From Halobellus clavatus (GTDB lineage Archaea > Halobacteriota > Halobacteria > Halobacteriales > Haloferacaceae), in the NCBI RefSeq assembly GCF_900107195.1, contig NZ_FNPB01000004.1, positions 186,001 through 250,000 of the forward strand: a stretch of DNA of 64,000 nucleotides, read 5' to 3'. This document shows positions 12,703 to 41,657 of the stretch, piece by piece. The translations under genes and the position numbers were made by a program. How positions within the stretch are numbered: the stretch's first letter is position 1; every line of letters begins with the position of its first letter. Below the pieces are notes generated by a model. That model worked only from the letters and a program-made list of their open reading frames with translations. It was not told the origin of the DNA and searched no databases.

Positions 12703-12746
12703 GTACAAAAAATTCATTATGGATGGTTTCCTGCTGTCAGGTGATT

Positions 12747-15017: not shown

Positions 15018-15041
15018 CGTATCGGGCTGTCACACGAAGAT

Positions 15042-19196: not shown

Positions 19197-19383
19197 ACAC
19201 CAGCGCTTAGCGAACCACATATTTTAATATAACGGACGGCAGGTCCCACGACGACCTCGGCCTCTCAGTGGTGCCGCTCGACACAGCGGGCCGGTAAAAC
19301 CCTGAGGACCCGAAATCCAGTCCGTTCGCCCGAGTGGTTCGGAATCCGTTCCGTCGCTGTCCAGGATTTCACTCCGCCAACAC

Positions 19384-19392
19384 AAATTATAT
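19384..19392 (+). promoter_or_regulatory. TATA-like box of the CGSC operon
   Basis: AAATTATAT lies about 30 bases before ATG 19418 in a strongly AT-rich segment. Confidence 0.5.
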
Positions 19393-19417
19393 GTCGTGTT
19401 AGTATGTTATATAGCGT

Positions 19418-19987: not shown

Positions 19988-20005
19988 CTCCCCTCCCTAT
20001 CCTCT

Positions 20006-21094: not shown

Positions 21095-21224
21095 TCCCTC
21101 GCCCCCGACCGAGCATCGATTCTCCGTCCGTTTCGCTGCGTTCCTTCGTATTCGGCCGGCTCGGAACCGACGCTGACAGCCGCGTCGAAATGAATCATAG
21201 GAAACTGAGGCTGTCTCGATCCGA

Positions 21225-22262: not shown

Positions 22263-22375
22263 AGTCGTTTATCCCTATCGATCAGCATAAATATACTGGT
22301 GAGAGGGGTCCCTGTGGGACGGTGTTTCGGCCGTAGAAACCTTTTTGCCTGCGCTGGAAGAATCGCGAGGTAACT

Positions 22376-23305: not shown

Positions 23306-23349
23306 GGAATCGGCCGTCTCTCCGCCCAGATGAGCCGGTGAAGATTTCT

Positions 23350-23376
23350 ATAACGAATGTTATGAATAACGTTATT
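23350..23376. promoter_or_regulatory. tandem ATAAC/GTTAT palindromes upstream of the aldehyde dehydrogenase
   Basis: Two inverted repeats lie side by side: ATAAC-gaat-GTTAT (23350-23363) and the perfect AATAACGTTATT (23365-23376). They lie about 72-98 bases before ATG 23448. This array of four half-sites looks like a dimer-of-dimers operator or an upstream activator site for the ALDH gene. Confidence 0.5.
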
Positions 23377-23447
23377 TAGCAGAACGACGAATCACATTCC
23401 ACAGCGGTCATTCGGACGCCTGCGACCGGTCCCGCTGGTGGAATACA

Positions 23448-24881: not shown

Positions 24882-24964
24882 GCGCCGCAGACGCCTCCGT
24901 TTCGACCTGTAACGAACCGGTTCTCTTTCCGCCGCTCACGAAACACGTCGGAGCCGTGCGCCAC

Positions 24965-25063
24965 TCACTCGCCGTCGAGGGAGCCGACGACCGCCGAGAC
25001 GAACCGTTCGGGAGCGGTGTTCATCGCCGCGTGGCCCTCGCGGTCACCTGCACCATACGACGG
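24965..25063 (-). pseudogene. alpha/beta hydrolase C-terminal remnant
   Basis: Between a stop at 25066-25064 and TGA at 24967-24965 the minus strand encodes SYGAGDREGHAAMNTAPERF followed by VSAVVGSLDGE. This reads like the last 30 residues of an alpha/beta hydrolase: the catalytic His in GHAAMNTAPERF, then the terminal helix. The rest of the gene is missing; the sequence upstream on this strand is the GTG promoter region of the MATE gene. It is probably a relic left by a deletion. Confidence 0.5.
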
Positions 25064-25145
25064 CTACTGGGGACGGTCGTCTAAATCTTGGCTCCGGGGG
25101 CGGCGAGACCAAGCTATTTACCGCCCTGTATCGTCAGCCAGAGTC

Positions 25146-26621
25146 GTGCGCAGCACACTTCGCGAGGAGGTGCGCTCAGCCCTGGATGCGTATCCGGGGG
25201 CGCTGGCGCGCCTCGGCATCCTCGACCGCGAGATGGGCGAGGAGATCTTCGACCTCGCGGTCCCGGTGATCGTCACCGGCAGCCTCCGGACGCTCGTTCG
25301 GACCGTCGACTTCTTTATGGTGAGCCTCGCCCTCGGTGCGGCGGCGGTCGCTGCCCTCCAGTTCGGCTTCCAGTACAGCCTCCTCACGCTGGGGATCGGC
25401 CTCGCGCTCGCGAGCGGGACCATCAGCATCGTGTCCCGGTTCACCGGCGCCGGCGAGTCGGCCCGGGCGAACCTTGCCCTGGAGCAGTCGCTGTGGCTGA
25501 CGCTCTGTCTATCGACGCCGTTCGCTGTCGTGGGGTGGGTCTGGCCCGCGCCGTTGATCGACGTGCTGACCGACGATCCGGCAGTCATCGAACTGGGGGG
25601 AACGTACCTGAAGCTGCTGATGATCTCGACGCCGTTTCACTTCTGGACCATCGTCGCCTCCCGCGCGCTCGCCGGCGTCGGGAACACGCGAACGCCGATG
25701 TACATCAGGACCAGTTCGCTCCCCGTGAACACCGCAGTGAACGCCGTGCTCATCTTCGGTCTCGGACCGGTCCCGGCCCTCGGGATCGCGGGGGCTGCAA
25801 TCGGCACGACGGTCGCGAACGTCCTCCAGGCGGCGCTCTTTACCGCCGCGTTCTTCTCCGGACGGTACGGCCTCGAACTGTCGCTCTCGGGGCCGCACGT
25901 CGATCGCTCGATTATGCGCGAGATCGTCCGAGTGAGCCTCCCGGTTTCGGGCTCCCAACTCGCGACGATCGCGGCGCGATTCCCCTTCCTGTTCATCCTC
26001 GGAACGCTGGGAACGAACGTCGTCGCCGCCTACGCGATCGGCCGGCGGATCGTGACCCTGGCGCGGATGCCGGCGTGGGGCTACGCCACGGCGTCGAGCA
26101 CGCTCGTCGGACAGGCGCTGGGCGACGAAGACGATGCGTCCGCAGAGCGGTACGGGTGGCAAAGCGTCAGGATCTCGCTCGCCACGGGCGTCATTCTCGG
26201 ATCGCTGATCGTCGTCGGCGCACGCCCGCTGGCGCTGCTCTTCGGCGCAGACGACGTTGGACTCACGGTGACGTTCATCTACGTCTTCAGCGCCGCGGTC
26301 GTCGGCTTCAGCATCAGTCGCACCTTCCAGGGCGCGCTTCGGGGTGCGGGCGACACCCGAATCCCGTTCTACGCGTCGCTGATCGGCAACTACCTGATCC
26401 GCCTCCCGATCGCGGCGCTGGCGCTGTCGGGCAGCGTCACCGTCGGTCTCCTCGGGGTGTCGATCGCGCCGGGACTGGGGCTGGGACTGACCGCGGTCTA
26501 CGTCTCCGTCTGGGCGGACATCTACGCCCGAGCCGCGATCAACTGGGGCCGGTACCGCTCGGATCGGTGGAAGGAGATCGGCCGCGCCGGCGTCGCCAGG
26601 GCCCGGGCGGGGGCGGACTGA
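25146..26621 (+). CDS. MATE-family multidrug/toxin efflux transporter
   Basis: The 491-residue membrane protein has about 12 hydrophobic helices in two similar halves, with MATE segments such as FDLAVPVIVTGSLRTLVRTV near 35 and RALAGVGNTRTPMYI near 180. The second-half equivalent is FQGALRGAGDTRIPFYASLI near 395. MATE proteins export cationic or organic compounds using a proton or sodium gradient, the likely coupling ion in a halophile being sodium. GTG 25146 was chosen because a CTATTTA box lies about 30 bases upstream and the preceding frame crosses the hydrolase remnant. It may relieve toxicity of aldehydes or aromatics handled nearby. Confidence 0.88.
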   Translation: MRSTLREEVRSALDAYPGALARLGILDREMGEEIFDLAVPVIVTGSLRTLVRTVDFFMVSLALGAAAVAALQFGFQYSLLTLGIGLALASGTISIVSRFTGAGESARANLALEQSLWLTLCLSTPFAVVGWVWPAPLIDVLTDDPAVIELGGTYLKLLMISTPFHFWTIVASRALAGVGNTRTPMYIRTSSLPVNTAVNAVLIFGLGPVPALGIAGAAIGTTVANVLQAALFTAAFFSGRYGLELSLSGPHVDRSIMREIVRVSLPVSGSQLATIAARFPFLFILGTLGTNVVAAYAIGRRIVTLARMPAWGYATASSTLVGQALGDEDDASAERYGWQSVRISLATGVILGSLIVVGARPLALLFGADDVGLTVTFIYVFSAAVVGFSISRTFQGALRGAGDTRIPFYASLIGNYLIRLPIAALALSGSVTVGLLGVSIAPGLGLGLTAVYVSVWADIYARAAINWGRYRSDRWKEIGRAGVARARAGAD

Positions 26622-26670
26622 CCCGTCTGTAGAGAAAAATTATTACCAACCCGGCCGAAAGCAGTTGTCG

Positions 26671-27519
26671 ATGGCCTATCAGGGATACGCGGACTACTTC
26701 GAGAAACCGGTAATCATCAGTGTCGCTCCCACGGGCGGGATGCACGGCAAGGAGGCGAACCCGAACCTCCCCGAACAACCCGAAGAGATCGCCGCTGACG
26801 TCCGGGCGTGCGAGGAAGCCGGCGCGTCGATCGTCCACGTTCACGCACGCGACGAGAACGGCGACCCGACCAAGGATCCGGCGAAGTTCCAGGAACTCCG
26901 CGAGATCATCGACGAGCGGTGTGACGACATCATCGTGAACTTCACCACCGGCGGCGGCAACGACCGCGAGGGACGCATCCGCCCGGTACTGGAGACCGAA
27001 CCGACACCCGACCTCGCGACGGTCGACCTCGGCCCGCTCAACACCCGCGGTGACACGGTCGCGATAAACACCCGCGTGCAGAACGAGGAGTACGTCCGCC
27101 GGATGCACGACCACAACGTCAAGCCCGAACTCGAGGTGTTCGGTCCCGGGCACCTCACAGAGGTGCACCACCTCGTCGACGAGGAGATGCTCGAAGAGCC
27201 GTTCTGGACCACGCTGATCCTCGGGATGCAGACGGGGACGATTCCGGAGCCGCGAAATCTGATCAATCTGATCGACAACCTCCCGGACGGAGCGGAGTGG
27301 CAGTGTATGGCGATCGGTCGCCACCAACTGCCGCTCACCACGATGGCGATGATCCTCGGCGGCCACGTCCGCGTGGGGATGGAGGACAACGTCTACTTCC
27401 GGAAGGGCGAACTCGTCGAGAGCAACGCACAACTGGTCGAGCGCACTGCCGCGATCGCCGACCAGCTTGACCGCCCGATCGCCTCGACCGAAGAGACCCG
27501 AGAGATGCTGAACCTCTGA
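26671..27519 (+). CDS. beta-keto acid cleavage enzyme (BKACE, DUF849 family)
   Basis: The 282-residue TIM-barrel protein has the zinc-binding HVHAR motif (H56, H58) after VAPTGGMHGK at 18-27, and the C-terminal GGHVRVGMEDN with E238, the third ligand. These are the hallmarks of the family of 3-keto-5-aminohexanoate cleavage enzyme. Members condense a beta-keto acid with acetyl-CoA to give acetoacetate and a new acyl-CoA. ATG 26671 is used; a TTG two codons earlier is possible. An AAATTATT box lies about 30 bases upstream. It stands alone, and the keto-acid substrate is not evident. Confidence 0.88.
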   Translation: MAYQGYADYFEKPVIISVAPTGGMHGKEANPNLPEQPEEIAADVRACEEAGASIVHVHARDENGDPTKDPAKFQELREIIDERCDDIIVNFTTGGGNDREGRIRPVLETEPTPDLATVDLGPLNTRGDTVAINTRVQNEEYVRRMHDHNVKPELEVFGPGHLTEVHHLVDEEMLEEPFWTTLILGMQTGTIPEPRNLINLIDNLPDGAEWQCMAIGRHQLPLTTMAMILGGHVRVGMEDNVYFRKGELVESNAQLVERTAAIADQLDRPIASTEETREMLNL

Positions 27520-27942: not shown

Positions 27943-28926
27943 CTATTCGCCCTCGATGGTGATGCGCGGGTCGATGATGGTGTAGAAGATGTCGACCAGG
28001 AAGTTCCCAGCCACGATCCAGATGGCGATGATGAGGAACATAAACTGGATGACCGGCGTGTCGCGCGCGAACACCGAGGTGAGCAACAGTTGTCCAATAC
28101 CGGGCCAGTTGAAGACGATCTCGATGAGGACCAGTCCGCTGATGGAGGTGGCGGTCACCGCCGGCAGGACCGTGATGACCGGCAGGGAGGCGTGTTCCAT
28201 CACGTGCCGGAACCGGGTCCACCTACCGAGGCCCAGGAGCCGCTGATAGACGGCGAACTCCTGGTTGCGGACCTCGACGACGCTCCCCCGCATCACCAGC
28301 GTGGGGTAGTACATATACTTGATAACGACCGTGACGAACGGCAGCGTGTAGTGGTACCAGAAGCTCTCGGTGAGGTATATCTGCCATCCGGGGTTGTTGG
28401 TCACGACCTCGATCGACGCGATACTGCCTGATGGGAACCAACCCAGGGCCGACGAGAAGATAGCGATCAGCAGGATGCCGATGAAGAAGTCCGGCGTCGT
28501 CCCGATGATGTTCGGCGGGATGATCCCGTACTTCTCGAGAGTGCTCCCGGGGTTGGTTCCGAGCAGGGCGCCGTACAGCGAGCCGATGACGAAGGCCGTC
28601 AGGACGCCGGGCAGGGCCAGGATCATCGAGTTGCGCAGCGCGGGCGCGACGACGTCGATGACCGGCTTGCTGAACTGTCGGGACATCCCGGCGTTTCCGG
28701 TGAGCATATTGCCCATCCACGTCAGGTACTGGATGTAGATGGGTTCATCGAGGCCCCACGCCTCGCGGACCGCCTCGACCTGTTCTGGCGACGCCCCCTG
28801 CTGGAGGAGGAGCGTCGCGTAGTCTCCCGGCATCAACCGGAAGGAGAAGAACAGGAACGTGGCGATGGCGAACACCAGCAGTATCGACACCACCATCCGC
28901 CTGGCGTAGTAGTAGAGTTGACTCAT
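27943..28926 (-). CDS. ABC transporter permease, DppB/OppB type
   Basis: The 327-residue membrane protein has the DppB layout: an N-terminal helix, a periplasmic segment with the MPGDYATLLLQQGAS region, then five further helices. The EAA-like cytoplasmic loop YQRLLGLGRWTRFRHVMEHA lies near 240 and VLIEIVFNWPGIGQLL near 275. It forms the channel with the DppC-type partner at 31075. Its start overlaps the stop of the ATPase gene by four bases (28923-28926), so it is translated after it. This puts DppB last in the operon, not first as usual. Confidence 0.9.
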   Translation of the reverse strand: MSQLYYYARRMVVSILLVFAIATFLFFSFRLMPGDYATLLLQQGASPEQVEAVREAWGLDEPIYIQYLTWMGNMLTGNAGMSRQFSKPVIDVVAPALRNSMILALPGVLTAFVIGSLYGALLGTNPGSTLEKYGIIPPNIIGTTPDFFIGILLIAIFSSALGWFPSGSIASIEVVTNNPGWQIYLTESFWYHYTLPFVTVVIKYMYYPTLVMRGSVVEVRNQEFAVYQRLLGLGRWTRFRHVMEHASLPVITVLPAVTATSISGLVLIEIVFNWPGIGQLLLTSVFARDTPVIQFMFLIIAIWIVAGNFLVDIFYTIIDPRITIEGE

Positions 28927-31073
28927 CGCTGCTCACCCCCGTCGCTGATGGCGGCCGCAGGCGCGTCGGCGACCTTCTCGACCTCGGCGTACTCCTCGTG
29001 GTCGTAGTGAAGGTGGCAGGCCGTCTGGTGGTCGTCGCCGTCGACGTCGACGTAGGCCGGTTTCGTGTCGCAGATGTCCATCCGGTCGGGACACCGGTCC
29101 TTGAACCGACAACCCCCGGGGAGGTCCGTCGCATCGCCCGGCGTTCCGGGCAGTTCCGCCCACTCCCGCTTGTGGTGCGGGTCGGGCACTGGGATGGCCT
29201 GCAACAGCGACCTGGTGTAGGGGTGCTTGGCCTCGTTGAGGAGTTCCATCGTCGGCGCGCTCTCGACCAGGCGGCCGAGGTACATCACGTTGACCCGGTC
29301 ACAGACGTACGAGACCGTCGAGAGGTCGTGAGAGATGTACAACATCGATACGCCGTACTCGTTGGTCAGGTCGTTGAGCAGGTCGAGGACCGACGCCTGG
29401 GTCGACACGTCGAGCATCGACACCGGCTCGTCGGCCAGGATGACGTCCGGTTCGAGGATGAGCGCGCGGGCGATGGCGACTCGCTGTTTCTCACCCCCGG
29501 AGAGCTGTGACTCGCTCCGGTCGATGTACTGCTCGGCGGGCGTGAGCCGCACCTGTTCGAGGATGTCCAGGACCCGTTCCTCGCTGCGCTCCATATTGTG
29601 GATGCGCAGGGGCTCCATCAGCGTCTCCCGGACCGTGAAGTGCGGATTGAGGGTGTTGAAGGGGTCCTGGAGGATGATCTGGACCCGCCGGCGGAACTCC
29701 TTCCAGTCGCTCTTATCGAACTCGGAGACCGGGTCGCCATCGAACAGTATCTCGCCGTCGGTGGGGGGGTACTTCCCCATAATCGTCTGGAGCAGCGTCG
29801 ACTTCCCACAGCCACTCTCACCGATGACGCCTTGGATCTGGTTGCTCTTCAGTTCGAGGTCGACTCCGTCGACGGCCCGGACCGGTTCGTCCTCCTCGCC
29901 GAAGAATCGGGACTTGATGCTGTCGATGATGTTGGTCGACTGATCGAAGTGCTTGTGGAGGCCGTCCAGTTCGAGGACGGTCTCTTCGTCACCGCCCCGG
30001 TCGGCGTCCGCCGAGGCGCCCTTCGCGATTGGGTTCTCGCCCGCGGCCCCGCCCGTCTGATCGCGCTCGCTGAGGTATTCAGCGGCGAGTTCTTCCATCT
30101 CGTCGCTCCGGATGCAGGCGACCTCGTGGTCATCGTCGTTGTCGGGCACGTCTTCGAGGGGCGGTGCCCCCTCCCAGCATTCACGTTCCGCCCACGGGCA
30201 GCGGTCCGCGAACGTACAGAAATCGACCTCTTCCTCCTGAAGCGAGGGGGGAGTCCCCTCGATGCCTTCGAGTTTCCGATTGGGGTACCGGATGTCGGGG
30301 AACGCCCGCTGGAGGAGCGTCGTGTAGGGGTGACGGGACTCGTCGAAGAGGGCCTCTGTCGATCCCTGCTCGGCGATCTGTCCGCCGTGCATCACCGCCA
30401 TCGAGTTACACATCTCGAAGACGACGGCGATGTCGTGGGTGATGAACAGCAGGCTGAAGTCCCGTATCTCCCGCAGTTCGTCGAGGTGTTTGAGGAACTG
30501 GTCCTGCATAATCACGTCGAGCGCCGTCGTGGGCTCGTCCGCGATGATCATCGAGGGTTCGAGCAGGAGCGAGAAGGCGATGATGGCCCGCTGTTTCATC
30601 CCGCCGGAGAACTGGTGGGGGTAGTCGTGGACCCGCGATTCGGGGAGGCCGACGACGTCGAACAGCTCTTTGAGCTTGTTGACGGCCTTCTCCTCCGACC
30701 AGTCGGTGTGTGCCTCCGCGACCTCGATGGCCTGCTCGCTGATGCGCGCGAGGGGATTGAGGCTGTTCATCGCCGACTGGGGAATCACGGCGATCTCCTT
30801 CCAGCGTATCTTCTCGTTGTACTCCTTCTCGGAGAGGTCTTGGATCTCCTCGCCGCGGTACTTGACCGTCCCGTCGGTGATCCCCCCGTTGGCGTCCAGC
30901 GAGTTCGTGACCGCCTGTGCGAGCGTCGACTTCCCGCAGCCGCTCTCTCCGACCAGCCCGAAGTACTCGTTGGGGTCGATGCTGATCGAAGCGTCCGTGA
31001 CCGCGCGGAGATCGCCGCTGTTCGTCTGATACGTGATGTCTAGGCCTTCGATCTCGAGGAGTGGTTCCGTCAT
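28923..31073 (-). CDS. ABC transporter with two fused ATPase domains (DppD-DppF type)
   Basis: This 716-residue protein contains two complete nucleotide-binding domains. The first has Walker A GESGCGKST at 42-50, signature FSGGMKQR and Walker B IIADEPTTALD. The second has Walker A GESGCGKST near 418, LSGGEKQR and ILADEPVSMLD. Each half ends in the oligopeptide-family extension with a Cys cluster: CTFADRCPWAEREC...AC, and CRFKDRCPDRMDIC...AC. Separate DppD and DppF genes are the norm, so this is a fusion. ATG 31073 is preferred because it lies one base after the upstream stop; a GTG three codons earlier is possible. It energises import of the peptide-like solute. Confidence 0.9.
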   Translation of the reverse strand: MTEPLLEIEGLDITYQTNSGDLRAVTDASISIDPNEYFGLVGESGCGKSTLAQAVTNSLDANGGITDGTVKYRGEEIQDLSEKEYNEKIRWKEIAVIPQSAMNSLNPLARISEQAIEVAEAHTDWSEEKAVNKLKELFDVVGLPESRVHDYPHQFSGGMKQRAIIAFSLLLEPSMIIADEPTTALDVIMQDQFLKHLDELREIRDFSLLFITHDIAVVFEMCNSMAVMHGGQIAEQGSTEALFDESRHPYTTLLQRAFPDIRYPNRKLEGIEGTPPSLQEEEVDFCTFADRCPWAERECWEGAPPLEDVPDNDDDHEVACIRSDEMEELAAEYLSERDQTGGAAGENPIAKGASADADRGGDEETVLELDGLHKHFDQSTNIIDSIKSRFFGEEDEPVRAVDGVDLELKSNQIQGVIGESGCGKSTLLQTIMGKYPPTDGEILFDGDPVSEFDKSDWKEFRRRVQIILQDPFNTLNPHFTVRETLMEPLRIHNMERSEERVLDILEQVRLTPAEQYIDRSESQLSGGEKQRVAIARALILEPDVILADEPVSMLDVSTQASVLDLLNDLTNEYGVSMLYISHDLSTVSYVCDRVNVMYLGRLVESAPTMELLNEAKHPYTRSLLQAIPVPDPHHKREWAELPGTPGDATDLPGGCRFKDRCPDRMDICDTKPAYVDVDGDDHQTACHLHYDHEEYAEVEKVADAPAAAISDGGEQR

Positions 31074-31074
31074 A

Positions 31075-31983
31075 TTAGCCACCGAATTCGGAGACGTTTG
31101 TTTCGTGCACGCGCTCGTAGCCGCGGCCGAGCATAAAGATGCACAGCACGGTCAGCGAGATTGCGAACCCGGAGGTGAACGACCACCACCACGCCGAGGC
31201 GATGTACCCCGAGTTGTAGGCGTTGCGAAGCATCAGCCCCCAGGAGGGGACGCCCAGATCAGCGAACCCGATGAAGGCCAGCGACGCGCTGATGATGATC
31301 GTGAGACCGGTCCCCAGCGAGAAGAAGAGGACGATCATTCCACCGAGGTTCGGGAGGATGTGCCGGGTGATGATGTACCGGTCGCTCGCCCCGAGCATCT
31401 GGGCTGCCCGGACGTGTTCCCGTTCGCGTATCTGGAGGACCTGTGACCGGAAGACGCGGGCGTTGTTCCGCCACAGCAGGCACCCGATGATGAGGATGGT
31501 CGTCCAGGTGCCGACGCCGAAGTACGCCGCGAGGACGATCGCGGTCGGGATGAGGGGAATGCCGAATGCGAAGTCCGTGACACGCATGAGGATGTCGTCG
31601 ACGCGGCCGCCGTAGTACCCCGCGCTGACGCCGATGGCGACGCCGATAGTGACGACGAGCGCACCGCCAAGGAGGCCGGTGAACAGCGTCGGACGCGCCC
31701 CGTACAGGAGACGGCTGAACACGTCTTGTCCTCGTGAGGTGGTGCCGAGCGGGTGCTCGACCGACGGCGGCTGGAGTTCGAGGACGCCACCGCTCTCAGC
31801 GAAGAATATCTCGTCTGGCTGATAGGGGGCGATGGACGGTCCGAACAGCGCGAGGAACAGCACGAACAGGAACCCGAGGAGGAACGCGACGGTGAGCCTG
31901 TCCGAGAGGTACAGTCGCAGTGACGAGCGGAGGTTGCGGAGCAGATAGTGGTCCGTTATCCTGCTGATGCTACTAAGTATCAT
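31075..31983 (-). CDS. ABC transporter permease, DppC/OppC type
   Basis: The 302-residue membrane protein starts with a cytoplasmic helix, then the first membrane span and the DppC-type periplasmic loop with HPLGTTSRGQDVFSRLLYGA near 78. The EAA-like loop REHVRAAQMLGASDRYIITR is near 190, and FIGFADLGVPSWGLMLRNA near 240. The stop lies one base from the ATPase start. It is the first gene of the permease/ATPase unit. A thioredoxin-like gene separates it from the binding-protein gene. Confidence 0.9.
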   Translation of the reverse strand: MILSSISRITDHYLLRNLRSSLRLYLSDRLTVAFLLGFLFVLFLALFGPSIAPYQPDEIFFAESGGVLELQPPSVEHPLGTTSRGQDVFSRLLYGARPTLFTGLLGGALVVTIGVAIGVSAGYYGGRVDDILMRVTDFAFGIPLIPTAIVLAAYFGVGTWTTILIIGCLLWRNNARVFRSQVLQIREREHVRAAQMLGASDRYIITRHILPNLGGMIVLFFSLGTGLTIIISASLAFIGFADLGVPSWGLMLRNAYNSGYIASAWWWSFTSGFAISLTVLCIFMLGRGYERVHETNVSEFGG

Positions 31984-32112: not shown

Positions 32113-32793
32113 CTACGTCTCGATGTCTTCGACGAGGAGGGCGATCTCTTGGCGCAACGCGTCGATGCCGGGGTTGCCCACGAACCGGGACTCGACGGTC
32201 GAACCCGAGAAGAAGAGGACCGTCGGCGCGGCACCGACCTCGTACTCCTCGCGGAGCAACTCGACGTTGTCGGGCCCGTAGACGGCGCCGAGGCCGACCG
32301 ACTCCGGAATGGCCCCGTCGTGGCGGAGGGCAGAGAGGTCCTCGCGGACTGCCGCACAGGGCTCGCAGTCCTTCCGCCAGAAGTAGAGGACGGAGGCGGG
32401 CTGGCTCTGCGTAAACGGTGCGATCTCCTCGCCCGAGAGGGCGACGAACCCGGCGGGAAGGTTCGGGTCCCCGTCCGCTGTTTCGGTCCGTTCGAGCGAG
32501 AGGGCGACGTGGACGCTGGTCGCTTGGTCGAGGCTGTCACACGTTTCCCAGACGGCTATGGCGTCCCCGAGCGTGCGCCTGTCGATTTCTTCGACGTCGA
32601 AGTCGGTGCCGTCGACGTATCCTTCGACCTGCTCCCGGAACGTCTCGTCGTCGAGGTCTGCCACGCGCTCCCGGCACTCGTCCCGGGCCTGACGGAACGC
32701 GTCGGTAAACCGGAGGTTCTCCGCCGACTCCTCGAATAGCCCTTCCTCCCGAAGCAGTTCGTAGAGTTCCTCAGGGTCGGTACTGGTGCTCAT
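32113..32793 (-). CDS. thioredoxin-like domain protein
   Basis: The 226-residue cytoplasmic protein has an acidic helical N-terminal part (1-130) of no known family. A thioredoxin fold follows: ASVLYFWRKDCEPCAAVRED with C143 and C146, and the cis-Pro strand GAAPTVLFFSG near 190. The CEPC active site differs from the classic CGPC. A TGTTTATCC box at 32814-32822, about 25 bases upstream, supports ATG 32793 and a separate promoter. It sits between the binding-protein and permease genes of the ABC importer but has no signal peptide, so a direct role in transport is doubtful. Confidence 0.8.
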   Translation of the reverse strand: MSTSTDPEELYELLREEGLFEESAENLRFTDAFRQARDECRERVADLDDETFREQVEGYVDGTDFDVEEIDRRTLGDAIAVWETCDSLDQATSVHVALSLERTETADGDPNLPAGFVALSGEEIAPFTQSQPASVLYFWRKDCEPCAAVREDLSALRHDGAIPESVGLGAVYGPDNVELLREEYEVGAAPTVLFFSGSTVESRFVGNPGIDALRQEIALLVEDIET

Positions 32794-32840
32794 ACACGGG
32801 GGTATCGTGGCACGGATAAACATCTTTCCCGCGGAACGGA

Positions 32841-32895: not shown

Positions 32896-34728
32896 TCACT
32901 CGCAGAGCTCGGGGAGGCAGGGGAAGTCGTCGGGGTTTTCACACGGCGAGGAGTCCTCGGGCCAGCGCGGCGTGAGGTCCTTATCAGCCGGGTATCGGAG
33001 CCGGCCGTCGTCGTCCCATCCCCACCCCTCGTCGCGCAGGATCTGCTTGGCGGTTTCGGGGTTCGCCTGCGGGCTGTCCGCGATCTGCGTGAGCATATCC
33101 TCCGGCGGACGCCACGGGTGGGTCTTTCCGATGAACGAGGAGTACAGTTCCGTGCTCCCATTGCCACTGTTCAGGATGCTCAGCATCCGCTGGCGGTTGA
33201 TCGCCTGGGAGACGGCGTGACGGAACTCCGTAAACATCGAGGGGGCGAAAGAGTGCTGGGTGCGCACTTCCCAGGAGGTGAACGCCTCCCCGGTGACGAC
33301 CTCCGCGGTATCGCCGAGCGACTGCTTGATCTGCTCGTTCGTGTCCGTCGTACTGTTGATGAGCACGTTCAGACTGCCCTCCTCGAAGGCCCGGCGGGCG
33401 GTCTGTCGGTCGGAGTAGCCCCGGAACGTGACACCGCCGTTGGTTTCGATCCAGTGGTCGTCGTACTGGGAGAGCGCGAGAAGCTGTCGGGGCTGGTAGC
33501 TGTCGACCTGGTAGGGCCCCGAGCCGATGATCTCATCGAGGTCCGGGTCCTTGGGATTCTCTTCGGCGCCGGCCTCGACCCACACGTCCTTGGGGAGGAT
33601 GCCGCTCCAGTTCGGAATGAAGGCGTTGATGTACGGCGGCTGGGGGCTCTCCATATTGACGACGACGGTCGTGTCGTCGGGCGTCTCGATGGACTCGTAG
33701 GGGAAGGAGTTGATCGACGACAGGGAGTCGGAGTTGTCGTTGAGCCAGTTGAGTGTCCACTTCACGTCTTCAGACGTGATCGGATCGCCGTTGTGGAACG
33801 TCATCCCCTCCCGGAGGTTGAATGTGAAGGTCTGGAAGCTGTCCTCGACGTCCCAGCTCTCCGCGGCACCGGGGGCGAGTTCGTAGTCCTTGTCCCGGTA
33901 GATGAGAGGCATGTACACCGTCCCGACCCAGGGCGTCGCCGGCCGGGTGTTCTGGTAGACGACGCTGGGGATGTTCCCCGGCGTCATATTCACGAGGAGC
34001 TTGTCCGCCCCGTTGATGGGTTCGGACTCCCAGAGGAACTCGGGGTTCCGTGCCGCGACACCCGCGGTGCCGATACCGCTCGCATCGACCTGGTCGGTGC
34101 GATAGACGCCCGCCACCGTGTTCGTCACGAGGGTGATCGGGGTCACTTCCTCGCTCGCGATGGCTGTTGCCTCGTTGACCAGCGTCTCGCGCTCGTCCGG
34201 ATTCGACGCCGCGCGCTGTGCGTCGACCTTCCGCGAGTACTCGCAGTTCGCGTAGTTGCTCGTGTTAGGCTTCCCGTTCGTGCCCGCGAACGAGATGTGG
34301 AACGGCCCAATGAGGTTGTCCGGATCCAGGAAGCTGGGGAACGGCGGGCTGAGGTCGACGCTGAAACTGAACGTCCGGGCGTCGTTGTACACCTCGTTCC
34401 AGTACGTGGTTAGCTCCTTGACCGTCACCTCCGAGGGGACACCGAGGACGGACTCCAGCTGGTCACGGATGTGGAGGTTGGCTTGCTCGATGTTTGAGGC
34501 GCCCGCCACACCGCCGAGTGCCCCGATCGAGACCGTCGGAACGCGCTCGCCGAGGTCCTGCTCGCTGCCGCTGGTGGTCCCGTCACCGCCGCTGTCGCCA
34601 CCGTCGTCGTCGCTGCTGCCGCCGCCACCGCCGCCACAGCCCGCGAGGCCCGCCGCCGCGGTCGCGCTTAGCGCTGCCAGGTATGTTCGTCGGTCGATAC
34701 CGTCGTCGTCCGGTGATTCTGCGCTCAT
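32896..34728 (-). CDS. peptide/nickel-type ABC substrate-binding lipoprotein, apparently circularly permuted
   Basis: The 610-residue protein has a Tat signal with RR at 13-14 and a lipobox LAGC (C31), then a Gly/Ser/Asp linker to about residue 60. The SBP_5 fold follows in an unusual order. Residues 62-235 look like the normal C-terminal third, e.g. SNYANCEYSRKVDAQRAASN...ERETLVNEA...PITLVTN. Residues 242-590 look like the normal N-terminal and central parts: LLVNMTPGNIPSV, TFNLREGMTFHNGDPITSED, EFRHAVSQAINRQRM and NPETAKQILRDEGW. A short Cys-rich tail (three Cys in the last 15) ends the chain. It should bind a peptide-like or other solute outside the cell for the importer downstream. The start follows a TTTATTAT box at 34821-34828, implying a leader of about 65-70 bases. 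Confidence 0.88.
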   Translation of the reverse strand: MSAESPDDDGIDRRTYLAALSATAAAGLAGCGGGGGGSSDDDGGDSGGDGTTSGSEQDLGERVPTVSIGALGGVAGASNIEQANLHIRDQLESVLGVPSEVTVKELTTYWNEVYNDARTFSFSVDLSPPFPSFLDPDNLIGPFHISFAGTNGKPNTSNYANCEYSRKVDAQRAASNPDERETLVNEATAIASEEVTPITLVTNTVAGVYRTDQVDASGIGTAGVAARNPEFLWESEPINGADKLLVNMTPGNIPSVVYQNTRPATPWVGTVYMPLIYRDKDYELAPGAAESWDVEDSFQTFTFNLREGMTFHNGDPITSEDVKWTLNWLNDNSDSLSSINSFPYESIETPDDTTVVVNMESPQPPYINAFIPNWSGILPKDVWVEAGAEENPKDPDLDEIIGSGPYQVDSYQPRQLLALSQYDDHWIETNGGVTFRGYSDRQTARRAFEEGSLNVLINSTTDTNEQIKQSLGDTAEVVTGEAFTSWEVRTQHSFAPSMFTEFRHAVSQAINRQRMLSILNSGNGSTELYSSFIGKTHPWRPPEDMLTQIADSPQANPETAKQILRDEGWGWDDDGRLRYPADKDLTPRWPEDSSPCENPDDFPCLPELCE

Positions 34729-35480
34729 AATGTCACCTTCGTACCGTGTCCGGATGAACGCCTTCCCGACGAGGGGTGCAGCGTGTTCCCGTACACCTCG
34801 TTCAACCCATGTAATCAACCATAATAAACCCATCGCGGCGGTGGCCAAATTGCTGTTACCGTGAGAAAAAGAACGCGTAGTCGCAAGCGGGTCACCGGCC
34901 CGAAAGTGCGGCGGCGGCATCGCGCAGACAGTTCGGGAAAGCAGGAGACGTCCTCGATCGTCGAGACCCTGAGACGTTCAGCTCCAGCATCGCGGATGGG
35001 GAGTGTGACGGGTTGTCCCACCCTCGACCGCTTCGCTCTCCGCGAGATCTGTCGCCATCTCGTCGTCCCCGTCCCCGCAGCAGACGGGTATCGACACCGC
35101 TCGCAAAGAAGCGCGGCCAGCGGCCGCCTGACGCACACCGGCCTGGCGGTGGTGACGGGTGTGTTGTTCGCGACGATGCCGTCGGCGCTGTCGTTGAGTT
35201 CCGTGTTGCAGCGAAACGCGGCGTTCCGGACGGTGACGCCGGAGTCGCCTGTGTCGACGGCATTGCCGGAGGCTGCCTTCGAGCCGCCGGGTTCGAACTC
35301 GATCGGATCATCTCTGTCCGAGGCACTGCGTGGGGCTCCTGTGATGATTCTTCAGTCATCCGTTCTGTCGAGTGCCAGTCCCGTCCAACACCACGAGTGG
35401 GGACGCTCAGGTGGTACGCAGATGTATCATATATAATATATTATGAAAATTTTTGTCTACTGCTGGCGAACCCCGGTCCA
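34729..35480. other. 752-base gap between binding protein and amidohydrolase
   Basis: The left end holds the promoter and leader of the binding-protein gene; this leader contains a six-codon frame (MVDYMG, stop). The middle contains a decayed reading frame listed separately. The right end (35425-35455) is very AT-rich (TATCATATATAATATATTATG) and should hold the promoter of the amidohydrolase gene at 35481, 25-55 bases downstream. Confidence 0.4.
35137..35348 (-). pseudogene. coding-like remnant of unknown family
   Basis: One minus-strand frame encodes about 70 acidic residues with typical haloarchaeal composition (DPIEFEPGGSKAASGNAVDT, then GVTVRNAAFRC and SADGIVANNTPVTT) but has no start codon. 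Around 35025-35095 a different frame becomes acidic (DDEMATDLAESEAVEGG) before a stop. This pattern suggests a gene broken by frameshifts. I do not recognise the family. Confidence 0.3.
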
Positions 35481-36482
35481 ATGCGCAACCGAATCGATGC
35501 GTACTCACACGTCTTCACCCGGGAGGTCGAGGAGGCGTTTCTCGATCTCGACCCCTCGCACGGCAAGCACAAGCCGAACCTGCTGTACCACGAGAACGTC
35601 GACGAGCGGATCGACCATCTGGACCGGATCGGCGTCGACAAGCAGGTGATCACGATGACCGGCCAGCGGATCTGGCCGAATGTCGATCCCGCCGACGGCA
35701 TCGAGGCGACGCGGCTCGCGAACGACGAGGTCCGGCGCTACGCCGACACGGACCCCGATCGGTTCGTCCCCGTCGGGACCGTCCCGTTCCTCACCGGCGA
35801 GTACGTCGACGAGTTCGAGCGGTGCGTGAACGACCTCGATCTGGCCGGCATCCAGATCTTCACGAACGCGAACGGCAAGCCGCTTGACCACGACGACTTC
35901 GACGCGTTCTACGCGGCCGTCGACGACGCCGACGTTCCCATCTGGATTCACCCCCTGGACTCGGAGTGGTACCCCGACCTCGACGCGGATGACTACTGGC
36001 TGTACGCGATGATGGGGTGGCCCTTCGACACCGGCCTGGCGATCGGCCGCCTGGTGTTCAGCGGCGTCCTCGACCGGTTCGAGAACCTCGAAATCGTCAC
36101 CCACCACCTCGGAGGCGTCCTGCCGTACCTCGAAGAGCGGATGCGATCGTGGGTCGAGACCCGCCAGGAGTACGGCGACGCCTACACTGGTGCGGAGAGC
36201 ATCCAGGCGCTGTCGGAGCCGATCGACGCGTACTTCGACCGGGTGTACGCCGACACTGCGGTCAGCAGCCGTGGGCTCACCCACACGCTAGCGAGTGGGC
36301 TGGAGTTCTTCGGCGAGGACAACATCCTGTTCGGCGCCGACGTCCCCTACGGGCCAGGTGGAGGGACCAAGTGGCTGGAGACGACGATTCCGACGATCGA
36401 AGAGTGGGACGTTCCCGAACGGACCAAACGAAAGATCTTCTCCGAGAACGTCGAATCGCTGCTTGCACCGCAACGCCTGTGA
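35481..36482 (+). CDS. amidohydrolase-2 (ACMSD-like) protein 1
   Basis: The 333-residue TIM-barrel protein begins RIDAYSHVF, a variant of the DxHxH metal strand that keeps the Asp and second His. It continues with VPIWIHPLDSEWYPDL near 152, VTHHLGGVLPYLEERM near 203 and LFGADVPYGPGGG near 287, the His and Asp sites of this superfamily. Members decarboxylate or hydrolyse aromatic and meta-cleavage-derived acids using zinc or manganese. ATG 35481 follows a very AT-rich promoter. Two further members occur at 43761 and 51204. The altered first motif makes metal content uncertain. Confidence 0.85.
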   Translation: MRNRIDAYSHVFTREVEEAFLDLDPSHGKHKPNLLYHENVDERIDHLDRIGVDKQVITMTGQRIWPNVDPADGIEATRLANDEVRRYADTDPDRFVPVGTVPFLTGEYVDEFERCVNDLDLAGIQIFTNANGKPLDHDDFDAFYAAVDDADVPIWIHPLDSEWYPDLDADDYWLYAMMGWPFDTGLAIGRLVFSGVLDRFENLEIVTHHLGGVLPYLEERMRSWVETRQEYGDAYTGAESIQALSEPIDAYFDRVYADTAVSSRGLTHTLASGLEFFGEDNILFGADVPYGPGGGTKWLETTIPTIEEWDVPERTKRKIFSENVESLLAPQRL

Positions 36483-36800
36483 GGGACCATCCGGAGACTG
36501 TTTCCGTTTGATACTCAGTAGGGGGCTCTTCACCAGGACAAGACGGTCAGACGGCCGGGTCAGTGTCGTGCCCAGTGCTCGTGGGATATGGTGTTCCAGC
36601 GTCGAGCGAGTTGGAGTACGACGGGGCGTAAACCCCCCTGGAGGTAATCCCACCACCCCTCGACGGCGTTCCATTCGGAGCATTCGGCCGGACGTCCACG
36701 ATCCGAGATCGTCTCCCTGCACGCACGACGCCGTTCGTCCGGGTTAGCGGTCGAATGCGAAGAGTTATCACACTTCCGTCGGACACCTTTCGCCACCGAG
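36483..36800. other. intergenic gap of 318 bases
   Basis: The gap separates two plus-strand genes. I see no gene and no striking repeat. GAGTTATCAC near 36760-36769 is a weak TATA-like candidate for the ligase gene at 36801. Confidence 0.3.
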
Positions 36801-38816
36801 ATGACTGCCCGATCCCCCGATCAGTTCCCGGTCGTTCACGAACCGACACAGGAGTGGATCGAGTCGACGAACGTCTGGGCGTTTATGCAGGCCCACGACA
36901 TCGACGACCACGAGGAATTCCTCGCGCGGACGACGGGACAGCACGACCGCGACGACGCCGGCGTCGAGTGGTTCTGGGACGAACTCGTCGACTACCTCGA
37001 TCTGGAATTCGACGAGCCGTACGACGCCGTCCGCGACGACACCGACGGCCCACAGTTCACCGACTGGTATCCGGGCGGCCGCCTGAACATCGCTCACAAC
37101 GTCCTCGATCGATATGCCGAGGGCGACCGGGCCGACGAGAACGCCATCGTCTGGGAGGGTGAACCGGGCGAGGTCCGCGAGATCACCTTCGCGGAACTAC
37201 ACGCGCAATCGAACCGCGTCGCGAACTATCTCGAATCTGTCGGGATCGGTACCGGCGACACAGTCGGCCTGTATATGCCGATGGTCCCGGAAGTCACCTC
37301 GATCCTCTATGGGTGCTTCAAAGTCGGCGCGATCGCGGTACCGATCTTCTCGGGGTTCGGCGTCGACGCGACGGCGACGCGCATCGAGGACAGCGAGTGT
37401 TCCGTGCTGTTTACCGGCGACGGCTTCTACCGGCGGGGCGACGAACTCACGCTCAAGGACGCCGCCGACGCGGCGATTGCGGAGACCGGCCACGTCGAGG
37501 ACGTGGTCGTCTACGATCGTCTCGGCTCGAGGGGGGAAGAGTCCGACGCGGACGTTCCGTGGAATCCGAACCGCGACGCGTGGTGGGAGGACGCCGTCGG
37601 GAGCGCCGCCGACGCCTACGAGTCGAAGTCGCTCCCGTCCGATCAGGAGTCGATGCTCCTGTACTCTTCGGGGACGACCGGAGAGCCGAAAGGAATCGTT
37701 CACACGCACGCGGGATCGCTGGTCCAGCCGGCGAAGGAACTCCACTTCGGGTTCGATCTCCAGCCGGATGACCGGTTCTTCTGGGTGAGCGATATCGGCT
37801 GGATGATGGGCCCGTGGACGCTCATCGGGACCCACGCGTTCGGCGGGACCGTGTTTATGTACGAGGGCGCGCCGGACCACCCCGAGCCGGACCGCTTCTG
37901 GGAGATGATCGACCGGCACGACCTCACGCAGTTCGGCATCTCGCCGACGGCGATCCGAGCGCTGCGCGAACACGGCGATCACTGGGTCGAGAAGCACGAC
38001 CTCTCGAGCCTGCGACTGTTGGGTTCGACGGGCGAACCGTGGGACCGGGAGTCCTGGGAGTGGTTCTACGAGGCCGTCGGCGACGAGGCGTGTCCGATCA
38101 TCAACATTTCCGGCGGGACCGAAATTATGGGCTGTTTCCTGCTGCCGATGCCGACGCAGTCGCTGAAGCCCTGTTCGCTCGGGAGCCCCGGCCCGGGGAT
38201 GGACGTCGACGTCGTCGACGCCGACGGCAACAGCGTCGCCGACGACCACGAGCGCGGGTATCTGGTCGCCCGCGACTCCTGCCCCTCGATGACGAAGAGC
38301 CTCTGGAGCGGCGACGAGCGCTACCTCGAGGAGTACTGGTCGACGTGGGAGGACCTCTGGGACCACGGCGACTGGGCGCAGCGAGACGAAGACGGCTTCT
38401 GGTTCCTCCACGGGCGAGCCGACGACGCGCTCAACGTCGCCGGTCGGAAGGTCGGGCCCGCAGAGATCGAGGGCGTCCTCGCCGAACACGACGCCGTCAC
38501 GCAGGCTGCAGTGGTCGGCGTCCCGGACGAGACCACAGGCACGGCCGTCGAGGCCTTCGTCATCCCGGATCCGGACGCCGAAGCCGACGACGCGCTGGCC
38601 GCGGATCTTCGCGAACTCGTCGGCCGCGAGCAGGGCAAACCCTTCCGCCCGCGGGCCATCTACTTCGTCGACGACCTCCCGCGCACGCAGTCGGGCAAGA
38701 TCATCCGCCGTGCCGTCAGGTCGCTGGCCCAGGACGAGGACCCCGGCGACCTCTCGTCGATGGAGAATCCCGAGGCGCTGGCGGCGCTGCGAGAGCGGTT
38801 AGCAACGGACAGTTGA
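36801..38816 (+). CDS. acetyl-CoA synthetase-like AMP-forming acyl-CoA ligase
   Basis: The 671-residue protein matches acetyl-CoA synthetase length and layout: WFPGGxxN-type TDWYPGGRLNIAHNVLDRY near 83, the P-loop YSSGTTGEPKGIVHTHAG near 290, WVSDIGWMMGP near 330, NISGGTEIMG near 435 and GRADDALNVAGRKVGPAEIE near 540. The C-terminal TQSGKIIRR holds the acetylatable catalytic Lys near 635. It makes an acyl-CoA from acetate or a related short acid, ATP and CoA. The SGGTE motif with IMG replaces the WQTE of classic Acs, so propionate or another acid is as likely as acetate. Confidence 0.88.
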   Translation: MTARSPDQFPVVHEPTQEWIESTNVWAFMQAHDIDDHEEFLARTTGQHDRDDAGVEWFWDELVDYLDLEFDEPYDAVRDDTDGPQFTDWYPGGRLNIAHNVLDRYAEGDRADENAIVWEGEPGEVREITFAELHAQSNRVANYLESVGIGTGDTVGLYMPMVPEVTSILYGCFKVGAIAVPIFSGFGVDATATRIEDSECSVLFTGDGFYRRGDELTLKDAADAAIAETGHVEDVVVYDRLGSRGEESDADVPWNPNRDAWWEDAVGSAADAYESKSLPSDQESMLLYSSGTTGEPKGIVHTHAGSLVQPAKELHFGFDLQPDDRFFWVSDIGWMMGPWTLIGTHAFGGTVFMYEGAPDHPEPDRFWEMIDRHDLTQFGISPTAIRALREHGDHWVEKHDLSSLRLLGSTGEPWDRESWEWFYEAVGDEACPIINISGGTEIMGCFLLPMPTQSLKPCSLGSPGPGMDVDVVDADGNSVADDHERGYLVARDSCPSMTKSLWSGDERYLEEYWSTWEDLWDHGDWAQRDEDGFWFLHGRADDALNVAGRKVGPAEIEGVLAEHDAVTQAAVVGVPDETTGTAVEAFVIPDPDAEADDALAADLRELVGREQGKPFRPRAIYFVDDLPRTQSGKIIRRAVRSLAQDEDPGDLSSMENPEALAALRERLATDS

Positions 38817-38951
38817 GCAGGGTCACGCCGGCGGCGACCGTCTGTGAGTGGATCCGCTCCCGGAAGCTGTCGGGAACTACCGCACGGCGAAGCCCTGGTA
38901 CAGAGAAGCCGGAGCATAGCGGACGGCAGTGCCAGGGACTGCGTCCGGTCC

Positions 38952-40505
38952 TCAGCGTGCTTCTTTCAGCAGATCTGCGCCCTTCTCGGCGATGGCGATG
39001 GTGGGCGCGTTCGTGTTCCCGCTGATCAGGTTGGGCATAATCGAGGCGTCGATGACGCGCAGTCCCTCGACGCCGTGGACGCGAAGCTCGTCGTCGACGA
39101 CGGCCAACTCGTCGTCTCCCATCTTGCAGGTCCCGACCGGGTGGTAGCCGGACTCAGCGATCTCCCCGCAGTACGCGAAGATCTCCTCGTCGGACTGGAC
39201 GTCGGGACCGGGTCGGACTTCCTCGCCGCGAACGTCGTCGAGGGCGTCAGCCTGGGCGATACGCCGAGCGCGACGGATCGCCGTGACGATGTCCGCCCGG
39301 TCCTTCTCGGTCGTAAGCAACTGTGGGTCGATGATCGGATCCTCGTAGGGATCCGTCGAGGCCAGCGTGATGCGACCCCGACTCGACGGCCGAAGCGGGA
39401 GCGCGGCGATCGAGAAGCCCTCCGTCGGGTTCTCGGGGTCGAGTCCGGCCGAGAGGCCGTACTGGATGTCCGGCGCCGGGAGGTCCGCAGACGAGCGCTC
39501 GAACGCCCCTGTCAGGACGCGGTCGTAGCGGGGGCCGGTCTCAGGCTGGTCCTCGGGATCGCGTGGCGTGATGTCTTCGGTCGTCTCGTATGCGACGTTG
39601 ACGCGGAGGTGGTCCTGGAGGTTCCGGCCGACGCCCGGGAGGTCTGCACGGACGTCGATCCCGTGGTCCTCGAGGTGGTCGGCGGGACCGATCCCCGAGA
39701 GCAGCAACAACTGCGGGGACTGGATCGCCCCGGCCGCCATCACGACCTCACCGCCCTCGGCGACCGTGACTTCGTGTTCCTGCCCGTCGGACTCATAGAC
39801 CGCTCCGGTCGCCCGGTCGCCCTCGAAAGTGAGTTCGGTGACGTGTGCACCGGTCTCGACTGTGAGGTTCGGGCGGTCGAGCACCGGTTCGATGAACGCC
39901 TTGGCCGCGCTGTGACGCTCGCCGTCCTGCATCGTGGAGTGATACCAGCCGACGCCGGCCTGCTGTTCGCCGTTGAAGTCCAGGTTCCGCTCCATCCCGG
40001 CCTCCTGTGCGGCCTCGATCAACTGTTCGGAGAACTCACTGGGGGTGAGGTCGTCCGGGTTGTCGCCGCGAGTGATCGAGAGCGGGCCGTCGGTGCCGTG
40101 GTACGCCATCTCTCCCCTGGCCTGGAAGTTTTCGGACCGCTTGAAGTACGGGAGCAGGTCGTCGTAGCTCCAGCCGTCGTTGCCGAGTTCGGCCCAGGTG
40201 TCGTAATCGTCGGGATGACCGCGGATGTACGCCATCCCGTTGATCATACTCGACCCGCCGAGGGCCTTCCCGCGGGGCCAGTCGATCCGGCGATCGTGCA
40301 TCTGTGCTTGGGGTTCGGTCTTGAACGCCCAGTCGAGTTCCGATTCCATCAGCTCCCAGACGCGGGAGGGATCTTTCACTGCCTCGTTGTCGGAGGCAGG
40401 CTCTCCGGCCTCCAGCAGCAGCACCTCGACGTCGTCGTCTTCGGTCAGCCGGTGAGCCAGGGTACACCCCGCGCTCCCGCCACCGACGATCACGTACTCG
40501 TACAT
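38952..40505 (-). CDS. GMC-family FAD-dependent oxidoreductase, copy 3
   Basis: The 517-residue enzyme has the FAD loop GGGSAGC near residue 8, signature WPRGKALGGSSMINGMAYIR near 76, GAIQSPQLLLLSGIGPADH near 258, active-site YHPVGTCKMG near 460 and the final NTNAPTIAIAEK helix. It is closest to copy 2 (16163) in length and sequence but keeps the canonical PVGTC turn. It is divergent from a zinc ADH (120 bases between starts), an arrangement that recalls the first catabolic region and suggests two related alcohol-oxidation modules. Confidence 0.9.
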   Translation of the reverse strand: MYEYVIVGGGSAGCTLAHRLTEDDDVEVLLLEAGEPASDNEAVKDPSRVWELMESELDWAFKTEPQAQMHDRRIDWPRGKALGGSSMINGMAYIRGHPDDYDTWAELGNDGWSYDDLLPYFKRSENFQARGEMAYHGTDGPLSITRGDNPDDLTPSEFSEQLIEAAQEAGMERNLDFNGEQQAGVGWYHSTMQDGERHSAAKAFIEPVLDRPNLTVETGAHVTELTFEGDRATGAVYESDGQEHEVTVAEGGEVVMAAGAIQSPQLLLLSGIGPADHLEDHGIDVRADLPGVGRNLQDHLRVNVAYETTEDITPRDPEDQPETGPRYDRVLTGAFERSSADLPAPDIQYGLSAGLDPENPTEGFSIAALPLRPSSRGRITLASTDPYEDPIIDPQLLTTEKDRADIVTAIRRARRIAQADALDDVRGEEVRPGPDVQSDEEIFAYCGEIAESGYHPVGTCKMGDDELAVVDDELRVHGVEGLRVIDASIMPNLISGNTNAPTIAIAEKGADLLKEAR

Positions 40506-40592
40506 CTACGTGAATGTATACCAGCGAGCAATCGTACATTAATGTTGGTGTCGGTCCGTCGCGATTCGAGAGACGTCCCACCTGGACCACAA

Positions 40593-40600
40593 TTTATTAT
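40593..40600 (+). promoter_or_regulatory. TATA-like box of the zinc ADH 2 gene
   Basis: TTTATTAT lies about 30 bases before ATG 40626, inside the divergent GMC 3/ADH 2 promoter region. Confidence 0.5.
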
Positions 40601-40625
40601 CGCCGCCCGAGCAGGTGGGGGCGAG

Positions 40626-41657
40626 ATGGACGCAGCACGTTACTACGGAAACAGAGACCTTCGAATCGAAGACATCCAAGCGCCGACGCCGGGGCCCGGT
40701 GAAGTCCTGATCGACGTCGGGGCCTGCGGGATCTGCGGGTCAGATCTCAGCGAGTACCTCCACGGGCCGCGGTACGACGACTCCCTGCCGTACACGATGG
40801 GTCACGAGTTCGGCGGGCGGGTGGCTGCCGTCGGCGACGAGGTCGACATCGAACCCGGCAGCGAGGTCGGTGTGAACCCGCTTGTCGCCTGTGAAGCGTG
40901 TCGGTGGTGCGACGAGGGAGCGTACAACCGCTGTGAGAACCTCGAAGTCATCGGCGCCCAGCGCCCGGGTGCGTACGCCGAGCAGGTCGTCGCCCCCGCT
41001 GGGAACGTGCTTCCGCTCCCGGACTCGCTCTCCCCTGCCGACGCTGCAGTCGCGGAGCCGTTCACCGTCGCGTACCACGGACTGCTGCGCTCGCCGCTCC
41101 AGCCGGGCGATTCGGCGGTTATAATCGGGATGGGGCCGATCGGACTCGCGCTGGTCCAACTCGCGGCGGCCGCGGGCGCTCGCCCGATCATCGCCTCGGG
41201 ACACCGGGAGGCGCGTCGCGAACTGGCTCGCGAAAGCGGTGCCGACGCGGTCGTGGATCCGAGCGCAACCGACCTCGGTGCGCGAGTTCGCGAACTGACC
41301 GATGGCGGCGCGGACGTCTCATTCGAGGTCGCCGGCAGCGAATCGGCGCTGAACGACGCGATCACGGCCACGAGCGCCGGGGGCAATACGACCGTCTTGG
41401 GCGTGTTCAAAGGCGACGTCGAGATCGATCCGATGCACGTCGTCAACCACGAGCGAACGATCACCGGGTCGGCTGCCTACGAGACGGGACCGCTGGCCGG
41501 CCGGGAGTTCGGGCAGATCTACGAGATGCTCGCCCGGGACGAACTGGACGGCGACGCCCTCGTCACGTCCCGGCTCGACCTCGAGGAGATCACCAGCGGG
41601 TTCGAGGCGCTCGGCGACAGCGAGAGCGGCGAAGTGAAGATACTGATCGAGCCGTGA
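40626..41657 (+). CDS. zinc-dependent alcohol dehydrogenase (MDR family), copy 2
   Basis: The 343-residue enzyme has the catalytic region CGICGSDLSEY near 33, GHEFGG near 60, and the structural-zinc cluster CEACRWCDEGAYNRC near 87-101. The coenzyme loop GMGPIGLALVQLAAAAGAR lies near 169. It belongs to the same branch as copy 1 (21225) but is not its close duplicate. It should oxidise a secondary or polyol alcohol. The promoter has a TTTATTAT box about 30 bases upstream. The SDR gene follows 102 bases later on the same strand. Confidence 0.9.
   Translation: MDAARYYGNRDLRIEDIQAPTPGPGEVLIDVGACGICGSDLSEYLHGPRYDDSLPYTMGHEFGGRVAAVGDEVDIEPGSEVGVNPLVACEACRWCDEGAYNRCENLEVIGAQRPGAYAEQVVAPAGNVLPLPDSLSPADAAVAEPFTVAYHGLLRSPLQPGDSAVIIGMGPIGLALVQLAAAAGARPIIASGHREARRELARESGADAVVDPSATDLGARVRELTDGGADVSFEVAGSESALNDAITATSAGGNTTVLGVFKGDVEIDPMHVVNHERTITGSAAYETGPLAGREFGQIYEMLARDELDGDALVTSRLDLEEITSGFEALGDSESGEVKILIEP

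Follow-up and report, generated by a model that had tools for sequence, protein, structure and literature searches.

Locus organization

The window, that is, the whole 64,000-nucleotide stretch of Halobellus clavatus DNA under analysis, contains an importer operon with a gene for a solute-binding protein (SBP) of the SBP_5 family. The open reading frame of this gene was confirmed from the start at 34728 through a Tat/lipobox signal to the stop. The assigned genes and protein features, with the basis of each assignment, are as follows:

32896..34728 (-), gene of the circularly permuted SBP_5 lipoprotein, 610 aa (ORF, Pfam, rotation, segment profile, 5isu mapping, rotation scan)
34636..34728 (-), Tat (RR) signal with lipobox, DRRTYLAALSATAAAGLAGC (sequence); the lipobox cysteine 31 is present in 43/44 homologues
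34549..34635 (-), Gly/Ser/Asp-rich low-complexity linker, residues 32-60 (sequence; pLDDT <50 across residues 1-56 of the model)
34003..34545 (-), moved segment, residues 62-242, equivalent to the canonical SBP_5 C-terminal third (segment profile, E 1.2e-8 to 8ay0 380-495; 5isu mapping; rotation scan)
33985..34023 (-), join of the old C-terminus and the old N-terminus, about residues 236-248 (alignments)
32974..34002 (-), residues 243-585, equivalent to the canonical SBP_5 N-terminal two thirds (Pfam 6e-49, profile 1-288; 5isu 38-336)
32899..32973 (-), new C-terminal tail, residues 586-610, with cysteines 596, 604 and 609 (mean model pLDDT 83-89 over the last 20 residues)
34243..34245 (-), codon of Cys162 (NYANCEY), proposed partner of Cys604 (C162 and C604 pattern across 44 homologues)
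32917..32919 (-), codon of Cys604 (DFPCL) (same pattern across 44 homologues)
32113..32823 (-), putative thioredoxin-like protein with CEPC and no signal peptide, partner gene of this SBP clade (profile and PDB matches, neighbourhood)
31075..31983 (-), DppC-type permease (Pfam BPD_transp_1, OppC_N)
28923..31082 (-), fused DppD-DppF ATPase, 719 aa (two ABC_tran and two oligo_HPY stretches)
27943..28926 (-), DppB-type permease (BPD_transp_1 and its N-terminal domain)

The SBP, the thioredoxin-like protein, DppC, DppD-DppF and DppB are all encoded on the same strand, and the criterion of co-encoded DppB, DppC and DppD/F components is met. The Pfam assignments describe a complete importer of the Dpp/Opp type, as expected from an earlier, sequence-only reading of this DNA, which had called the permeases and the ATPase normal. 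The operon is kept beside most relatives of the SBP. Relatives of the DppD-DppF protein are either fusions or the products of two separate genes.

The transporter is surrounded by a catabolic island (window 12462-27519 and 35013-41657) that encodes several GMC oxidoreductases, two zinc alcohol dehydrogenases, an aldehyde dehydrogenase, an IclR-type regulator, acyl-CoA ligases, a beta-keto acid cleavage enzyme and an amidohydrolase. These neighboring genes permit only the weak inference that the substrate is not a peptide but a small alcohol or carboxylate.

Rotated order of the SBP_5 fold

The Pfam profile SBP_bac_5 (PF00496) matched the SBP with 167.5 bits against a curated cut-off of 32.4, so the profile criterion for this family is met; the match covers only residues 283-583, or profile positions 1-288 of 368 (6e-49). 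After the first third of the protein was moved to its end, the match reached profile position 360 (171.4 bits). In the control, the same rotation with the first third shuffled, the score was 166.7 bits and the extension was gone. The moved segment alone has no match in Pfam, and its significance rests on a family profile of residues 62-242 that was built from 24 homologues and run against the PDB sequences. This profile matched 34 PDB sequences near the C-terminus of the chain, and apart from the weakest match (E 1.7) all of them belong to SBP_5 proteins; in 8ay0, for example, residues 380-495 of 521 were matched with E 1.2e-8.

Two further analyses revealed the same rotation: (i) compared with the whole-family profile, the Listeria protein 5isu is covered by two swapped blocks, query residues 262-569 corresponding to chain residues 38-336 and query residues 76-207 to chain residues 350-474, and (ii) all rotations of the SBP were scored against a profile of 26 canonical relatives, and the scores peaked for the cut at residue 230-240, with 230.0 bits compared with 188.7 for the native order (+41 bits). 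The maximum for 20 controls with a shuffled moved segment was 189.2 bits, and 12 other permuted proteins gained about 35 to 112 bits on rotation against the canonical profile. Thus, both ends of the SBP_bac_5 fold are found in the protein by the segment profile, the 5isu mapping and the rotation scan, whereas the canonical order of its parts is not met according to the latter two and to the order test described below. The four further SBP_5 proteins of the genome are all canonical, and the family profile covers each of them nearly end to end.

The sequence-only reading had proposed a circular permutation in which C-terminus-type segments directly follow the lipobox linker, the N-terminus-type part starts near residue 245, and the protein ends in the middle of the domain. 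These results bear out the proposed permutation: the usual C-terminal third occupies residues 62-242, and the junction lies at about residue 243, which makes the proposed boundaries nearly exact. A profile alignment with residues 62-235 unrelated to the SBP_5 C-terminus, or a collinear order, would have refuted the proposal; the profile alignments contradict both. It had also been suggested that the anchor sits on a different face of the fold. The tether now precedes the equivalent of 5isu residue ~350 instead of ~35, and the protein is indeed attached elsewhere on the fold; the face itself cannot be named without coordinates.

The predicted model of the whole chain is confident, with a pLDDT of 87.2 and a pTM of 0.82. 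In a fold search with this model the top PDB matches are SBP_5 proteins that align to a part of the chain only, with a best TMq of about 0.43. Such partial matches are expected because the search is order-dependent and no permuted structure has been solved; performed without coordinates, it is incapable of displaying a permutation.

Judged from its sequence, the protein is a permuted derivative of SBP_bac_5 (cluster C) and not a canonical member of it. As a whole, and in the absence of coordinates, ligand or transport data, it is best explained as a lipid-anchored, circularly permuted receptor of the Dpp/Opp type, an explanation that we consider highly probable.

Distribution of the permuted order

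The sequence-only reading had proposed a search for homologues with the same order, and this search found the order to be widespread in Halobacteria and present beyond them. Full-length collinear relatives with 34-93% identity occur throughout the taxonomic family; a search of genome contigs with this one protein yielded a single locus. Close relatives are carried by 44 of the 391 genomes in the class (best E <1e-150; next best genome 3e-84), and many more genomes of the class have a second, diverged SBP group that is permuted too at the loci examined by the order test. Among the loci fetched, this test classified 64 ORFs as permuted and 26 as canonical. An N-segment profile seeded with permuted proteins only matches the C-terminal parts of canonical proteins at 18 to 92 bits.

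The permuted order was also observed in Alphaproteobacteria (Ketogulonicigenium, Nitratireductor, Microvirga and Roseomonas) and, within the same phylum, in a further archaeal family (code f15). The bacterial spread was judged from plasmid records only, and the range is a lower bound; two-piece plasmid matches in Cytobacillus, Fusobacterium and Meiothermus were left out, since joined pieces need not be collinear.

The signal peptides of the alphaproteobacterial permuted proteins at four loci (L073, L095, L096 and L097) have no lipobox cysteine. In the annotated records L073, L095 and L097, the SBP gene lies upstream of two permeases and two ATPases and has an M28 peptidase gene nearby; some of these loci are also near hydantoinase/oxoprolinase or racemase genes. 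One member of family f15 (L076, G584:C2:103906-105387) is a permuted SBP_5 protein with a Sec-like signal and a C-terminal PGF-CTERM; it probably represents a separate permutation event.

Multiple origins and a recent switch in family f15

For phylogenetic analysis, each half of the proteins was aligned separately and the halves were then joined in the canonical order. In the resulting tree, the haloarchaeal and alphaproteobacterial permuted proteins are on one side of a branch with support 100/99, and the f15 permuted proteins are placed among canonical ones. Topology testing rejected a single origin of all permuted proteins (AU p about 1e-84) and disfavored a common origin for the two f15 types (p 0.002). 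These p-values are model-dependent, the groups were named after the first tree, and long branches are present. The tree analysis shows, at the level of sequence, that the permutation arose more than once.

The f15 case needs no deep tree, as both orders occur among congeners. In genus g132 of this family, the protein is permuted in three species (L142, L143 and L144; genomes G525, G517 and G564), and four congeners keep the normal order while being 83-87% identical over both blocks (comparison set L145-L149). The DNA identity of both blocks between the two forms is about 80%. In the permuted form the signal peptide is kept and followed by KLKIELWWTP, which is found mid-chain in the canonical protein; the permuted protein ends at AKEYLKKAGYSE, which directly precedes KLKIELWWTP in the canonical one, and about six residues join the old ends. 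We looked for a remnant of a duplicated gene beside the recent g132 permutants and found none. The SBP gene is divergent from the permease and ATPase genes in the permuted g132 species, and leads the operon in the related genus g117 (L149).

In every event the break is in the same loop, between the same helix and strand: it follows the helix that ends in AK..L...GW and precedes the next beta-strand. The recent permutants (L075) are predicted lipoproteins.

Conserved cysteines and a thioredoxin-like partner

Two cysteines besides that of the lipobox are conserved in the clade of the H. clavatus protein: one, C162, belongs to the moved segment and the other, C604, to the new tail. They are both present in 37/44 distinct sequences and both absent in 7/44, which was also checked locus by locus. 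A thioredoxin-like gene adjoins most transporters of this clade, including those in distant genomes with altered gene order. In the class sample, strong matches to this protein (>160 bits; next best 107) were found in 37/44 genomes with the SBP clade and in 0/347 others (Fisher p 4e-45, uncorrected for kinship). Because loci beside these SBPs served as seeds for the profile, the telling part is the absence elsewhere. One further genome (G153) has an adjacent CxxC copy that is only partly matched by the profile.

At exactly the seven loci that lack both SBP cysteines, the CxxC of the thioredoxin-like protein is replaced by SxxC. These loci form one sub-clade and therefore probably reflect one linked change. 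In six of the 44 genomes the SBP cysteines are present without a recognised partner gene, hence the thioredoxin-like protein is not strictly needed. The protein encoded at 32113-32823 matches PDB thioredoxins over residues 130-235 with E about 1e-4 to 1e-3, with CEPC present, and is far below the NCBIfam thioredoxin cut-off; from these similarities, we assign it as a diverged member of the thioredoxin family. The co-occurrence of C162 and C604 with the CxxC of the partner suggests a disulfide that ties down the new end of the SBP. The linked loss of cysteines in the receptor and in its thioredoxin-like neighbor suggests that haloarchaeal Tat substrates undergo a dedicated step of oxidative folding in the cytosol. 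The SBP tail of the sub-clade represented in the window has an additional cysteine pair, C596 and C609, each present in 5 sequences, which may form a second disulfide.

Proposed mechanism and origin of the permutation

The permuted receptor is inferred to have the same bilobed structure as canonical SBP_5 proteins and would capture a small organic substrate in its cleft, dock with its two lobes on DppB/DppC, and deliver the substrate for uptake driven by the ATPase. Relative to the canonical receptor, only the tether point and the chain ends would have moved. In the sequence, a short linker connects the old N- and C-termini, and the new opening lies in the loop between the AK..L...GW helix and the beta-strand. 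The simplest inferred route is a duplication of the mature part behind the signal peptide and a subsequent loss of the outer pieces (S-N-C -> S-N-C-N-C -> S-C-N). In the haloarchaeal clade, the loose new tail may be fixed to the moved segment via a Cys162-Cys604 disulfide, which would be made or edited in the cytosol with the neighboring thioredoxin-like protein before the folded protein exits by Tat.

In a broader formulation, the permutation of SBP_5 proteins is a recurrent evolutionary switch that always uses one loop, and the opened haloarchaeal chain is refastened by a disulfide that links the moved segment to the tail and is introduced in the cytosol, ahead of Tat export, by a dedicated thioredoxin-like protein; where the disulfide is gone, this protein has also lost its first active-site cysteine. 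We regard the chances of this formulation as even.

Why the permutation arose is a different question from what the protein is, and one answer, to which we assign neither more nor less than an equal chance, is compatible with the permuted receptor as the best explanation. According to this answer, drift fixed a neutral change that brought nothing at first: opening is tolerated in this loop, and the old ends are next to each other. It is consistent with the use of the same loop in separate events and with the coexistence of canonical and permuted forms within one genus and within genomes. Against it stand the size and deep branching of the haloarchaeal clade, in which the new tail gained a conserved cysteine and a partner gene. 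These features speak for later refinement, but they are no argument for an advantage at the outset.

Selection for a better position of the lipid anchor, an idea raised for Treponema Tp0684, appears improbable as the cause. The haloarchaeal copies and the recent f15 permutants carry lipoprotein signals, and the Tp0684 authors raised tethering as a possible reason for a permuted topology (PMC4990184). On the other hand, the proteins of L073, L095, L096 and L097 are permuted and have signal peptides that lack the lipobox cysteine, L076 is permuted with a C-terminal PGF-CTERM, and the other four SBP_5 proteins of the H. clavatus genome are canonical. Because the alphaproteobacterial permuted copies do without a lipobox, the permutation cannot be explained in general by anchoring.

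We see next to no chance that the stretch up to residue 240 is another domain, attached by fusion to a truncated SBP_5 protein, with a C-terminus-like similarity that arose by chance. Although Pfam alone shows residues 283-583 only, this reading is contradicted by the rotated Pfam match, the segment profile, the 5isu mapping, the order test and the rotation scan, and the two parts sum to one whole canonical chain. The moved segment is poorly predicted on its own (pLDDT 61.5) and is therefore not a separate domain. An assembly or frameshift artefact, for which we found no point in favor, is practically ruled out by dozens of intact orthologues in the same order, including a 93% identical one in a second genome (L040).

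Comparison with known permuted binding proteins

Circular permutation is already known in other SBP clusters. The glucose-binding protein Tp0684 (MglB-2) of Treponema pallidum was described as a circularly permuted protein of 'cluster Bc' (PMC4990184), and glycine-betaine- and molybdate-binding proteins were found by structure comparison to be related by circular permutation (CPSARST, PMC2395249). We found no earlier report of a permuted SBP_5 protein in the open-access literature, which leaves most subscription papers uncovered, and we saw no mention of such binding proteins in a 2025 permutation survey preprint. The SBP_5 case thus has no earlier report that we could find, and its reach is unusual.

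The H. clavatus protein shares with SBP_bac_5 proteins of cluster C (DppA, OppA, NikA and AppA) all parts of the fold, as recognized in sequence comparisons, and an operon of the Dpp/Opp type; it differs from them in its rotation, which places the mature N-terminus at the equivalent of 5isu residue ~350. Like Tp0684, it is a tethered ABC binding protein that is circularly permuted in nature, and the Tp0684 type also occurs in other bacteria (PMC4990184). Tp0684, however, belongs to another cluster (B, sugar) and has another break point, and neither repeated origins nor a partner thiol protein is described in the consulted passages of PMC4990184. Membership of the cluster B sequence family is not met by the H. 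clavatus protein, for which only SBP_bac_5 matches in Pfam. The glycine-betaine/molybdate pair is likewise permuted, but its members are very distant (<24% identity) and belong to other SBP clusters (PMC2395249).

SBP_5 is a very large family whose permuted members escape order-dependent annotation: in databases they appear with a truncated match and are labeled ordinary substrate-binding proteins. The congeneric f15 pair provides a natural before-and-after of the permutation at 83-87% identity, and the mechanism and its effects on folding, export and transport are therefore directly testable. The break loop is also a natural opening site of SBP_5 proteins for biosensor design.
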